From Cerasicoccus sp. TK19100 (lineage in GTDB: Bacteria > Verrucomicrobiota > Verrucomicrobiia > Opitutales > Cerasicoccaceae): DNA of 64,000 nucleotides. The notes under the pieces are model-generated. The model was not told the origin of the DNA. It did not search any database and saw only the letters and a list, made by a program, of their open reading frames with translations. Location of the stretch: positions 744,001 to 808,000 of the forward strand of contig NZ_JAPWDU010000001.1 in NCBI RefSeq assembly GCF_027257155.1, in the 5' to 3' direction. This document shows positions 29,084-35,059 of the stretch, piece by piece. Position 1 is the first letter of the stretch. Each line of letters starts with the position of its first letter. A program made the translations under genes and the position numbers.

Positions 29084-29159
29084 GCCTCTCTAGCTCAATC
29101 GGTAGAGCAGTTGACTCTTAATCAATTGGTTCGGGGTTCGAGTCCCCGGGGGGGTACCA
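29084..29159 (+). tRNA. tRNA-Lys (CUU anticodon)
   Basis: A 76-nt cloverleaf can be folded. D arm GCTC/GAGC is at 29093-29108. The anticodon arm at 29110-29126 has loop CTCTTAA, giving anticodon CTT at 29117-29119. The T arm CGGGG-TTCGAGT-CCCCG is at 29132-29148, and CCA is encoded at 29157-29159. The acceptor stem (GCCTCTC with GGGGGGT) contains several G-U pairs. The anticodon reads AAG (lysine). The 3' part is the attachment site of the downstream element and is repeated at its far end. Confidence 0.92.
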
Positions 29160-30408
29160 TCCAACAAGGTGTGTCACCATTGGTCAAAACATTGCAAGTC
29201 GGTTCAAAATCAACGGCTTGCGCACTTTGTGGGATGTGGCTTTTTTTGTCACGTTTTATCAGAGAATTGCTAGGTTTTCCAGAAATCTGTGACCCTATCA
29301 GTGCACACTTCTCCAATCTAGGCAAACTGCGCACTCGATCAAAAAGTGGCAAGTGGTTTACGTCGGTATAAATCTGAGCTGTAAGTCGAACGTCATTGTG
29401 CCGCATAAGTTCCATTGCTTCACGCTGCGTAGCGCCGTTTGCTTGTAGGAAGGTACCCCAAGTATATCGGAACGAATGAAAGTCTGCGTAACGGCCTTGC
29501 TCGTCTTGATAGGGGATGCCGACGCGCTCCAGGTCTTGAGCTAAATCACGGGCCCGAGGAATGCCTCGCTTGAATACTTTCTCCGTTGGCTTTGCGTTCG
29601 CTGGCTTGAATCTTGATAACGCTTCTTGAAGATCGGGAACGAGCGGGATTAACCCTTCCTTCTCATTTTTAGTCGTTGAAGCTCTGGCCCGAATGTGTGG
29701 TTGCATTCCATCAAGCACGACGTCTTGCCAGAGTAGGGCAGCTAGCTCTTGACGCCGAAAACCAGTACGCGCAGCCGTGAAATATACCATGCTGCGGTGT
29801 GGCTGTGCAGCTGAGAGTAGCACAGCTAGTTCTTTTTCAGAGAATGCGCGACGCTTGCGGACCTCCTTGCCTCGCTGTTTAACTTTGGAAACCGATGCCA
29901 GGGGGTTAGATGGAATTCGCCCGAACTTTACCAAGGTGTTAAGGAAAGCATTCATTGCATCCTGAAAATGGTTTAAGGTTCGTGGTGCTAGATCATGCTG
30001 ATGGTTGCGCCAGGCAATGAAGCTATCGGGAGTCACATTGCTAATTACCTTCCAATGGCATTCGTTTAGTAACTGAGTTATGCGCTTCTGGTATTTCTTG
30101 GCACCCTCATCCTTACGGCCAGCTTTGCCTCGCTTTCGAAGGTCCGCGAGAAAGTCCTCCAGGTGAGAGAGAAGAGGCAATTTTGCCCCTTCTCTCATCG
30201 CAACTGGCGGCAGCATGCCGGCTTGTTCGGCTTCCCATTCGTTGCGGAAATCGACCGCTAGTTTATCAGCGACTTCCTTTTGCGTGACGCCAAGTGACTT
30301 CAAACGTTCCACCTCCATATCGCCGTAACGATAGCGCAGATAGTAGAAGCGTGATTTCGTCTTCTTGCCGTTGACGTTCTTAGTTCGCTCGTGGACTTGG
30401 TGAATCAT
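29122..30408 (-). CDS. int: Tyrosine recombinase (element integrase)
   Basis: A 428-aa phage-type integrase that would insert and excise the element at tRNA-Lys. The catalytic set is complete: Arg218 in TGFRRQELAALLW, Lys247 in TTKNEK, His311 and Arg314 in DFHSFRYTW, His337 in LMRHNDV and the nucleophile Tyr347 in AQIYTDV. An N-terminal SAM-like/core-binding domain lies at about residues 75-175. About 80 residues follow the Tyr, and the frame runs antisense into the tRNA, where codons WMVPPRGLEPRTN and the stop come from attL and host sequence. In an excised circle the same frame would extend 95 residues past VPPRGLEP. The start overlaps the excisionase stop by 4 nt (ATGA). Confidence 0.93.
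   Translation of the reverse strand: MIHQVHERTKNVNGKKTKSRFYYLRYRYGDMEVERLKSLGVTQKEVADKLAVDFRNEWEAEQAGMLPPVAMREGAKLPLLSHLEDFLADLRKRGKAGRKDEGAKKYQKRITQLLNECHWKVISNVTPDSFIAWRNHQHDLAPRTLNHFQDAMNAFLNTLVKFGRIPSNPLASVSKVKQRGKEVRKRRAFSEKELAVLLSAAQPHRSMVYFTAARTGFRRQELAALLWQDVVLDGMQPHIRARASTTKNEKEGLIPLVPDLQEALSRFKPANAKPTEKVFKRGIPRARDLAQDLERVGIPYQDEQGRYADFHSFRYTWGTFLQANGATQREAMELMRHNDVRLTAQIYTDVNHLPLFDRVRSLPRLEKCALIGSQISGKPSNSLIKRDKKSHIPQSAQAVDFEPTCNVLTNGDTPCWMVPPRGLEPRTN
29133..29159. other. attL core (tRNA-proximal attachment site)
   Basis: This 27-bp copy covers the T arm, acceptor strand and CCA of tRNA-Lys and matches the far copy base for base. Flanking bases differ on both sides (C before and T after here; G before and C after at the other end), which sets the limits. 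It is also read in antisense as the VPPRGLEP codons of the integrase. Confidence 0.88.
29280..29309. repeat. 30-bp direct repeat, left copy (possible integrase arm site)
   Basis: An exact 30-bp sequence starting CAGAAATCTGTGACC that recurs in the same orientation at 34945-34974. In the joined circle the two copies would flank the attachment core at 120 and 57 bp, the arrangement expected of arm-type integrase binding sites. It lies inside the integrase coding sequence and encodes CALIGSQIS in both copies. Confidence 0.65.
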
Positions 30409-30578
30409 GCCATGCCCCCTTTCAGAATTCGCTCGATTTCGGCAAGTGGGATGCGAACGCAGCCGCGAACCTTAATCTTGCTCAACATGCGATCGCGGAG
30501 CATGCGATTGATAGTCGAATCGGAAACGACTAATCGCTTAGCAGCCTCCTTTTTACTGATGAGGGAATCCTGACTCAT
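30405..30578 (-). CDS. Excisionase-like helix-turn-helix protein
   Basis: A 57-aa protein, MSQDSLISKKEAAKRLVV followed by SDSTINRMLRDRMLSKIKV and ending ERILKGGMA. It is of the MerR/excisionase-type winged HTH class (ISKKEAAKRLVVSDSTINRML matches the usual xis or DNA-binding excisionase-family pattern). It probably binds the attachment region and steers the neighbouring integrase towards excision. Start and stop are fixed by tight coupling: its start codon overlaps the upstream gene's stop, and its stop overlaps the integrase start, each by four bases (ATGA). It is too short for most ORF finders. Confidence 0.8.
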   Translation of the reverse strand: MSQDSLISKKEAAKRLVVSDSTINRMLRDRMLSKIKVRGCVRIPLAEIERILKGGMA

Positions 30579-33587: not shown

Positions 33588-34748
33588 TTATGCATTGGTG
33601 GCTTGTTTTAGGATTGTAGCAATTTCGCATGCACTAGCATCAGGATATGCTTTAAGGATCGATAAGGTTTTGAATGCCCAATATCGGCCGGCTTGATCCC
33701 GTAGCTCGTCTATGTCTTTTGCGCCGAGTATTTGTGCAACTTCGGCAATCTTCTCACGCCATTTCTGACCTGATTCACGCCAAGAGAAATGCTGCGAAAC
33801 TACACGCCAACCTCTGGAGTATCGGACCATGCGAGCGCCCTTGAATTGCTCGCCACGGTAGCGACTGCCCTTCTCAAGATATTTGCCGACATAGTTGGCA
33901 ATGCCTTCTGCATTAGAGCGAATCGGCAATAGCTCAGAACGACCGAACCCGTATTTCTTCATGATCTTACGGAGGTAGCTCCAAAGATGGCGAAGGTAGG
34001 GTGAGGCGGAGTCGGTGTAAATCTGCTTGAGGCGGTGGAAGTCCTGGCAGCGGCCAGCCTCTCGAAAGACGATTTGACAGGAGCGGAAGGCTTCGAAGTT
34101 AAAGCCTGTGCGAATGTCTACTTGGCAAACAACCACCAAGTGATAATGCACGGCCCCTCGCTTTTGTGGCTCAACAGTGACTACGTGATTCAGGAAGCAT
34201 TTTCGGAGAATGTGTGTTGCGAGCGAATTGAAACGGCGCTGGGCTTCGCGGAAATCAGTAACATTATCCTCAAAAGTGAGGGTGAGGAATCCGAGACGCT
34301 CAACGCCGTAGAGTTTTGCCAAGTGCTTTAGATTCTCGACTAGGGCGAAGGCTTTCTTCTTCTCCGAAGTACTGGGACCGTTGAGCCATTCCTGAACTCC
34401 ATTGTATTCGACAAGTTGGCGTCCGTTTGAATCGAACTTAATATGTTTGGCGTGCTTGATTTCTTCTCCTGTCCAGACAAGCGGATTTGCTCGTTGAGTA
34501 TCGAATCCCGAAGGGAGTTCGGTTGAGTTGTTACTCTTTAGACAAGGAAGGGCGGCTGCGCCGCCTGAGCGCTCACCGCTCCGCGCCGGGGCGCAATGCG
34601 CCTCCGGCTGCGGATCAGTGATGCGCTTCAAAACTTGACCAATCTCGCCTGGCTTTGATTCGATTAGAGCATTCGCGAAGCTTCCCGTTTCCGATGTTTG
34701 GCCTTCAGCGTGTTGTCGCACGTTGGAGGCTCCTTTTTGCGCCCTCAT
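33588..34748 (-). CDS. rep: HUH rolling-circle replication initiator (Rep)
   Basis: A 386-aa HUH endonuclease-type replication protein. Motif I is LGFLTLTFEDN, the HUH motif is GAVHYHLVVV with histidines at residues 201 and 203, and the catalytic tyrosine motif is NYVGKYLEKG with Tyr286 and Lys289. These proteins nick and stay covalently bound to DNA at an origin to start rolling-circle replication. The first about 80 residues are non-conserved and partly encoded by GC-rich hairpins. The start ATG overlaps the stop of the upstream integrase-tail frame by four bases (ATGA). In the integrated state no other promoter for rep is obvious, because upstream lies attR and host DNA. Confidence 0.85.
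   Translation of the reverse strand: MRAQKGASNVRQHAEGQTSETGSFANALIESKPGEIGQVLKRITDPQPEAHCAPARSGERSGGAAALPCLKSNNSTELPSGFDTQRANPLVWTGEEIKHAKHIKFDSNGRQLVEYNGVQEWLNGPSTSEKKKAFALVENLKHLAKLYGVERLGFLTLTFEDNVTDFREAQRRFNSLATHILRKCFLNHVVTVEPQKRGAVHYHLVVVCQVDIRTGFNFEAFRSCQIVFREAGRCQDFHRLKQIYTDSASPYLRHLWSYLRKIMKKYGFGRSELLPIRSNAEGIANYVGKYLEKGSRYRGEQFKGARMVRYSRGWRVVSQHFSWRESGQKWREKIAEVAQILGAKDIDELRDQAGRYWAFKTLSILKAYPDASACEIATILKQATNA
34551..34602. repeat. GC-rich hairpins inside rep (candidate origin)
   Basis: GGCGGCTGCGCCGCC (34551-34565) forms a 6-bp stem with a three-base loop, and GGCGCAATGCGCC (34590-34602) forms a 5-bp stem. The patch is much richer in GC than the rest of the element and encodes the non-conserved ARSGERSGGAAALP segment of Rep. 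Rolling-circle origins often lie in or next to rep and contain such hairpins; this assignment is inferred. Confidence 0.45.
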
Positions 34749-35059
34749 AAGCGTTGCCTTTCCGTCTTCGGCTCCGCCTGCGACCGCGCAAGGGGTAGTA
34801 AGTCACATTGATTCGAGAGATGGGGTTCTCCAATCAACGATTGAGATAAAGTCGGCTGGATTACCTCAAGAATCACCGACCTTTGGCCGGGGCTGAGCTT
34901 TGGCCAGACATGGGCCACCTTAGCCAGGTCTTGCCAGTCGTTTTCAGAAATCTGTGACCCTATCAGTGCACACTCAGAATTTTCCGATTCTGTAAAGTGC
35001 TTACTGTCTTCGCTTTCTGAATTGTCGTCCGGGGGTTCGAGTCCCCGGGGGGGTACCAC
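34745..35059 (-). CDS. Integrase C-terminal tail fragment, separated by integration
   Basis: An open frame of 104 codons beginning in attR. Its first codons (VPPRGLEP) are the att core read in the same frame as in the integrase. In an excised circle the integrase would run through the core into this frame and gain 95 residues (PDDNSESEDSK to TERQRL), giving about 520 aa. The tail repeats CALIGSQIS, then has NDWQDLAKVAHVWPKLSPGQ, which resembles a small helical module. The stop overlaps the rep start (ATGA). In the integrated state only a GTG inside attR could start it, with no ribosome-binding site, so it is probably silent here. Confidence 0.7.
   Translation of the reverse strand: MVPPRGLEPPDDNSESEDSKHFTESENSECALIGSQISENDWQDLAKVAHVWPKLSPGQRSVILEVIQPTLSQSLIGEPHLSNQCDLLPLARSQAEPKTERQRL
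34945..34974. repeat. 30-bp direct repeat, right copy (possible integrase arm site)
   Basis: Exact partner of the repeat at 29280-29309, in the same orientation and 57 bp from the attR core. Both copies are preceded by a TTTTC run. See the left copy for the proposed role as an arm-type integrase site. Confidence 0.65.
35032..35058. other. attR core (distal attachment site)
   Basis: A 27-bp exact copy of the tRNA-Lys 3' end marking the far boundary of the element. It is not a second tRNA gene: the sequence before it does not form D or anticodon arms. Host sequence resumes at 35059. Confidence 0.88.

Follow-up and report, generated by a model that had tools for sequence, protein, structure and literature searches.

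An integrative element of Cerasicoccus sp. TK19100 whose attachment site lies inside the integrase reading frame: a conserved C-terminal tail and a replication gene predicted to be rejoined to their operon in the circle

The element at tRNA-Lys and its genes

We analysed a stretch of 64,000 nucleotides from Cerasicoccus sp. TK19100 (contig NZ_JAPWDU010000001.1, positions 744,001 to 808,000), referred to as the window. It contains a mobile element of 5,899 bp, positions 29160-35058, which directly follows a tRNA-Lys gene. An earlier note on this DNA had claimed that integration of the element splits an operon, so that excision would extend the integrase and reconnect the replication gene rep. 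The element is flanked by two identical 27-bp copies of the attachment (att) core. The earlier note had recognised these copies; the right core stops at 35058 and not at 35059. On the minus strand the gene order is putative regulator, orf135, xis and tyrosine integrase (int), and at the distal end lie rep and a stub containing the detached end of the integrase. The cargo gene, encoding a KAP nucleoside triphosphatase (NTPase), is oriented opposite to the int operon. The features are as follows.

29084-29159, plus strand: tRNA-Lys (ctt), the integration target, intact (ARAGORN)
29122-30408, minus strand: tyrosine integrase, integrated form, 428 residues; open reading frame (ORF) matching Pfam Phage_integrase (1.5e-13) and PHROG integrase (9.2e-42)
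29133-29159: att core on the tRNA side, 27 bp, the 3′ end of tRNA-Lys; all 27 bases match 35032-35058
29276-29309, minus strand: arm-type direct repeat in the int ORF, reading CALIGSQIS; 33 of 34 positions identical with 34941-34974
30405-30578, minus strand: xis, a helix-turn-helix (HTH) excisionase of 57 residues; HTH_17, TIGR01764 excise (1.4e-8), PHROG 66; ATGA overlap
30575-30982, minus strand: orf135, an ORF with an ATGA junction; a relative in the L068 element is 32% identical
30979-31401, minus strand: putative regulator, an ORF with an ATGA junction; a relative in the L068 element is 61% identical
31313-31340: the 13-nucleotide repeat ATACCTATATGTA, present as two direct copies 15 bp apart where the operon begins (repeat comparison)
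31366-33561, plus strand: KAP P-loop NTPase, PifA-like cargo; Pfam KAP_NTPase (6.8e-39), PADLOC PifA (1.7e-66, residues 24-369)
33588-34748, minus strand: rep, an HUH rolling-circle replication initiator of 386 residues; REP_ORF2-G2P (8.9e-10), PHROG 3419 (3.8e-11)
34745-35059, minus strand: attR stub of 104 residues, made of core codons and the detached integrase tail; its stop overlaps rep by ATGA
34832-34945, minus strand: conserved two-helix tail motif (LAKVAHVWPKLSPGQRSVILEVI), from alignments and AlphaFold 2 helices
34941-34974, minus strand: second arm-type repeat, in the tail ORF, reading CALIGSQIS; 33 of 34 positions identical with 29276-29309
35032-35058: distal copy of the att core, 27 bp, identical to 29133-29159; spacing 5,899

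No family was found for orf135 in Pfam, PADLOC, PHROG or NCBIfam scans. The putative regulator had been labelled ribbon-helix-helix (RHH), a label that its searches do not bear out: it has no Pfam, NCBIfam or Protein Data Bank (PDB) match and hits a single PHROG of unknown function with an E value of 0.049. Its start is likely near 31315. The repeat pair at 31313-31340 lies just upstream of that start, and possibly serves as a putative operator. The PifA-like KAP NTPase is, from its domain matches, probably phage-defence cargo. Conjugation genes were not detected by Pfam among the seven main ORFs of the element.

Joining the att cores lengthens the integrase in frame

In the integrated state the integrase ends within the tRNA gene. 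Its C-terminus reads ...MVPPRGLEPRTN, and the final residues and the stop codon are supplied by the tRNA gene. When the two cores are joined, the reading frame continues for about 95 codons past the core, and the integrase grows from 428 to 520 residues. Integration thus swaps about 95 C-terminal residues for RTN. The stop codon of the joined integrase overlaps the start of rep by ATGA, and the same 4-nucleotide overlap occurs at four of four junctions: regulator/orf135, orf135/xis, xis/int and, as joined, tail/rep. In these respects the earlier note read the locus correctly: the 27 identical bases are read in the same frame in int and in the attR fragment, the continuation runs to a stop that overlaps rep, ATGA junctions connect the five genes of the operon, and the integrated integrase takes its RTN end from the tRNA. 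Since the core copies are identical, a crossover at any core position yields one and the same joined sequence; a frame-shifting crossover, which the earlier note had regarded as fatal to its reading, is impossible within the core.

Residues R218, K247, H311, R314, H337 and Y347 are invariant in an alignment of seven rows, and all lie N-terminal of the core. From general knowledge of tyrosine recombinases, we take these to be the catalytic residues.

At the local base composition, a single open frame of 95 codons arises by chance with a frequency of about 1%. The window alone is therefore merely suggestive, and it is the relatives that decide.

The in-frame tail recurs in related elements

Relatives were reached by Rep searches and by integrase searches, and the loci were cut out and checked for a tRNA-derived direct repeat flanking the family integrase. 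Of five named relatives in one integrase search, three come from Verrucomicrobia/Limisphaerales assemblies and the other two from unnamed bacteria, which points to a probable verrucomicrobial origin of the window. The Rep-led first round gave seven elements, the one in the window included. Thirty integrase loci, some of them extensions of loci examined earlier, were tested: 11 had both repeat and tail, three had a repeat without a tail, and 16 had no credible repeat. Ten further loci gave four with repeat and tail and six without a credible repeat. Altogether 38 of 55 integrase places were cut out and tested and 17 were left out; outside the host's class three of six were tested. The shortest accepted repeat was 19 nucleotides (L085), a limit chosen after the loci were seen, and G120C90 was counted despite an integrase of just 203 residues.

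Among the 25 loci whose tRNA-derived repeat is 19 nucleotides or longer, 22 have an in-frame tail with one conserved motif, so the survey that the earlier note had proposed bears it out on a broader scale than the note itself covered. In these 22 of 25 tested loci, the window among them, the attP core lies within the integrase reading frame and is in frame on both sides. In 22 of 22 elements the integrase frame runs for 60 codons or more past the core without a stop, as against one of 22 for each other frame, which excludes chance. Eleven named tRNA targets occur among the 22 (Lys, Glu, Asn, Leu, Met, Asp, Val, Ala, Ser, Tyr and Cys); ARAGORN named no tRNA for G480C6, which belongs to another class.

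The loci with a repeat but no tail are G145C1, G181C2 and G126C1d. A profile scan of the int strand of the fetched stretches found no tail in them, and in two of the three the int ORF stops short of the repeat.

Other candidates were set aside. G002C18/L079 had a 15-bp att candidate of which the int ORF falls short, and no repeat in the later test; a 14-bp candidate was rejected in L092; and that of G157C8, also of 14 bp, lies outside int (tail scan 10 bits). The repeats of G051C1 and G126C1b/c are not tRNA-derived. In G113C1 and G511C1 the longest repeat is the arm repeat and not the core, and both were left out of the counts; a downstream ORF end containing W scores 29.1 and 3.0 bits, respectively. 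L093 and L099 were excluded despite their tRNA repeats, because the family query did not match their integrases, which moreover are not directed into the tRNA. No distal repeat was found in G080C5, G076C57, G092C12, G057C93, G192C155, G144C56, G001C3, G004C3, G024C23b and G005C1, nor in G120C14, G067C14, G130C49, G130C156, G466C168, L002-L006, L073 and L081, and none of these was counted. An int-strand tail scan of the first ten (G080C5 to G005C1) gave nothing above 8 bits save the tail of G024C23a, which lies in the locus common to G024C23b. G120C14 has a strong tail match without a detectable repeat.

The tail is conserved in sequence and in frame

Eighteen tails were aligned, and in these a W and an L are invariant. 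With a leave-one-out profile built from the other 17 tails, the integrase frame scored 27.6-52 bits in 18 of 18 elements and all other frames at most 3.3 bits. The four later loci, outside the profile, scored 41.8-50.8 bits; as an earlier tail match had already drawn attention to G070C114 and G120C90, only G183C35 and G480C6 provide a fair test.

The tRNA core itself is not always read in the same way. It is translated as GxEP or an equivalent in 11 of the 18 elements and as xRT in seven. By parsimony, the core frame must have changed at least six times on the tree built from 21 integrase bodies, and well supported branches force two of these changes (8 of 18 inner branches are poorly supported). 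L069 and G007C1b are distinct elements arranged in tandem at a single tRNA-Asn (G007:C1, about 3029500-3042100). They are sisters on the tree and have a common tRNA-Asn core, which they read in different frames, each matching the frame of its own tail. From these counts we infer that selection keeps the integrase and the tail continuous.

A motif scan found 34 places in 24 of 141 genomes of the class, 13 of the 34 being rows of the profile itself. The open frame around the tail match spans 66-202 residues in 33 of the 34 places (two with a stop), as attR stubs would give, and at G015:C47 an open frame of 513 codons fuses stub, tail and Rep. A similar fusion was observed in L094 (3025-4485, minus strand), where a tRNA-like core (by eye), a W-motif tail and an HUH Rep share one frame, 486 residues from ATG. 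This contig is 22.3 kb long, and in the 20 kb of it that were searched the window integrase query gave no match to an integrase. The circle of L094 could possibly encode a single Int-tail-Rep polypeptide.

An AlphaFold model of the 104-residue stub, computed with two sequences, contains helices at residues 39-54 and 57-76. The predicted local distance difference test score (pLDDT) is 80-90 in a block at residues 41-70, about 50 at residues 71-80 and 61 on average. Neither stub nor tail has a family match in Pfam, PHROGs or NCBIfam. Beside the tailed element G024C23a lies a second, uninterrupted integrase of 498 residues, G024C23b (G024:C23, 119373-120494), with a weakly tail-like end.

Direct repeats flank the core within the reading frame

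A direct repeat of 15 nucleotides or more (at most two mismatches) brackets the core within the ORF in 15 of 18 elements. Repeats of at least 18 nucleotides occur in 13 of 18 elements, compared with 2.9% of 306 between-element pairs. In the window the two copies are 116 and 57 bp away from the core. Many of the repeats consist of a tandem pair of short sites, as arm-type integrase sites would, and we infer that they act as arm sites. By their similarity the flanking repeats link the two ends of each element independently of reading frame.

Rep and the gene after the tail

The Rep of the window scores 39.2 bits with REP_ORF2-G2P, above the cut-off of 27.8, and has an HxH motif in AVHYHLVV. It is 38-45% identical to proteins of plasmid records of 0.7-2.3 kb, which make up 20 of 32 among the matches listed, and three of the related plasmid proteins are annotated as phasyl replicon protein Arp. 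By these matches the window Rep is a rolling-circle initiator.

The tail is followed by an ORF with a match to Pfam REP_ORF2-G2P in 13 of the 18 elements; 11 of these matches exceed the Pfam cut-off and two (L095 and G177C3) fall below it. In three of the four later loci the post-tail ORF has an HxH motif. Separately, a small HTH-like ORF (by eye) was seen immediately 5′ of rep, with no integrase between, in L072 (7697-9225, plus strand) and L091 (5617-6670, plus strand).

Comparison with known systems

Very few elements have their attachment site within the integrase gene (PMC4701971). In Myxococcus phage Mx8, attP is inside the tyrosine integrase gene, and upon integration the enzyme exchanges its last 112 residues for 13 others and becomes less active (PMC4701971); the same layout is described in PMC4383910 and PMC6070905, and Islander lists Mx8 and SSV integrases as extending across attP (PMC4383910). 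Mx8 and the window are alike in having attP in int and a replaced C-terminus with the catalytic residues kept. The Mx8 record holds an int of 533 residues with a tRNA-like peptide (by eye) ahead of its tail. However, this tail is unlike the window motif (tail profile against Mx8 Int, −0.1 bits), and a gap of 47 bp separates the end of Mx8 int from the annotated gene that follows, p13, which has no named function. Moreover, the Mx8-type layout is rare in the literature (PMC4701971), whereas here it is found in 22 of 25 tested loci.

The replication side resembles Tn916, in which the attachment site parts replication and transfer genes from their promoter and these genes are expressed after circularisation (PMC11658703, crediting Celli and Trieu-Cuot 1998). 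In the window, too, the replication gene would join the int-side operon only in the circle, judging from the architecture and a modelled circle. Unlike the window, Tn916 carries genes for conjugation and uses an insulating terminator together with an antiterminator, and the available text mentions no integrase tail fusion.

Other systems are more distant. In mycobacteriophage BPs attP lies inside the repressor gene and integration shortens the product (PMC4557955), but the gene is a repressor and the tail a degradation tag. SSV-type (suicidal) archaeal integrases also have attP inside the integrase gene (PMC8371274); there the split parts an N-terminal piece from the piece with the catalytic domain, whereas in the window the presumed catalytic residues all stay on the body, a difference that the earlier note had pointed out. 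Streptococcal integrative and conjugative elements (ICEs) in rumA have attR inside the integrase gene and a state-dependent C-terminus (PMC4701971), but these are conjugative elements with serine integrases. In ICEKp1 end joining changes the promoter that drives int (PMC13023037); this concerns int transcription, and the available text mentions no fusion of coding sequences.

The arrangement is thus Mx8-like in the integrase and Tn916-like in the replication module, the two being joined at one site. What is new is the conserved, as yet unnamed tail domain, the coupling to Rep and the breadth of the layout, each half having a precedent in Mx8 or Tn916. The literature covered, with subscription journals mostly outside its scope, gave in the parts available no account of this arrangement in Verrucomicrobiota or of the tail motif. 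The earlier interpretation holds in part: the fusion, the conserved tail, the reconnection of rep and the difference from SSV are supported, and a silent rep in the integrated state is a prediction. The claim that no such arrangement had been described does not hold, as Mx8 and Tn916 each precede one half.

Weighing the interpretation

We consider fairly probable, as a whole, the explanation by which attP with its core and both arm repeats is contained in the integrase frame, the circle encodes the 520-residue Int together with Rep, and integration both trims Int and parts rep from the head of its operon, so that rep is transcribed mainly from the circle. Several observations weigh against this interpretation. 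Three of the 25 loci, of 2.0-3.6 kb and with tRNA-Pro-like ends, are tail-less. Five of the 18 tailed elements have no Pfam-scored Rep adjoining the tail: the post-tail ORF of G048C29 has no family match, and in G130C108, G184C14, G120C41 and G024C23a no rep was found after the tail, which is kept. As the tail is present without an adjoining Rep, serving rep cannot be its sole reason. The rep gene begins 160 nucleotides (L069) and 124 nucleotides (G177C3) past the tail stop, which leaves room for a promoter. A host ORF beyond attR (35290-35910, minus strand) runs in the same direction as rep and is aimed at attR, and host transcription could possibly reach rep from there. No arm repeat was found in three of 18 elements (G024C23a, G042C73 and G007C1b), and matches between elements extend up to 28 nucleotides (mean 12.8). 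Two uninterrupted integrases match the tail weakly at their end (12.3 and 13.6 bits). A circular form was not found among plasmids (searched with Rep and the joined Int), phages (Rep and the consensus tail), viral contigs or the genome itself, and a tail motif scan of 25 viral-contig loci gave none. Finally, the evidence is the sequence of the integrated state; the circle, its transcript and proteins and the recombination itself are predicted.

Some of these points would fit an explanation that is Mx8-like only. In this case the tail would tune the integrase between the two states, and rep would not be gated by excision but expressed from its own promoter or from the flank, its position reflecting packing. 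Retention of the tail in elements without a recognisable rep there, the co-directional host ORF and the gap before rep in 2 of 13 elements all speak for it. On the other hand, 11 of the 13 elements with Rep have an overlap between the first possible start of rep and the stop of the tail, which leaves no intergenic promoter space, and no sigma-70-like site was found in 34700-36000, by a weak consensus scan (1.7 sites expected in shuffles) that says little in poorly studied bacteria. We regard this explanation as rather unlikely.

It is very improbable that the overlap is passive, with int of a compact element simply running through attP and the tail being neutral. Arm-type DNA sites would be needed near the core anyway, but this does not account for the invariant W and L of the 18 tails, for an integrase-tail frame preserved across changes of core frame, or for the other frames, which are without the motif and rarely open. 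Even less credible is a tail that acts like the degradation tag of the BPs repressor, so that Int made from the circle would be unstable and Int of the integrated form stable. By eye, not one of the 22 tails has an LAA or AA end or an ssrA-like C-terminus, and what is conserved is predicted to fold as a two-helix hairpin away from the C-terminus. A tail that solely couples translation of rep to int would fit the ATGA-type overlaps with rep, but has hardly any chance of being right, as the motif is conserved in 4 of 18 elements without a following rep and is weakly present at the end of the two uninterrupted integrases.

Proposed mechanism

The model of an attP-spanning integrase frame builds on what the sequences display: the element in its integrated state, an ORF that continues when the cores are joined, a tail conserved in sequence and frame, the embedded repeats and the adjacency of Rep. 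In the circle, a single ORF would comprise the body for DNA binding and catalysis, an attP-encoded linker and, at the C-terminus, a conserved domain of about 40 residues with two helices, and rep would be next in the operon, coupled through ATGA. Once the circle has formed, one transcript would give full-length integrase and Rep. Integration would put tRNA sequence in place of the last part of int, removing the C-terminal domain and retaining the active site, and would cut rep off from the head of the operon. The full-length Int may favour integration, and the truncated Int with Xis may be enough for excision, which would then restore both the full-length Int and the linkage to rep. Transcription of rep would occur chiefly in the circle, by read-through from a promoter upstream of the putative regulator gene, and rolling-circle replication would follow excision and be off in the chromosome.

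There is about an even chance that these elements represent a widespread tRNA-integrating rolling-circle family in which the position of attP acts as a two-way switch: a single recombination event would turn the integrase from a full-length form that integrates into a truncated form that excises, through loss of the two-helix domain, and would also break the link between Rep and its promoter. As the layout is kept over strongly diverged elements, 11 tRNA types and two frames, control of directionality by removal of a domain may be general. Such a model is simple and open to test: recombination itself would set both the form of the enzyme and the state of replication, and a dedicated regulator would not be needed. 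The tail motif may further serve as a marker for locating such elements elsewhere.

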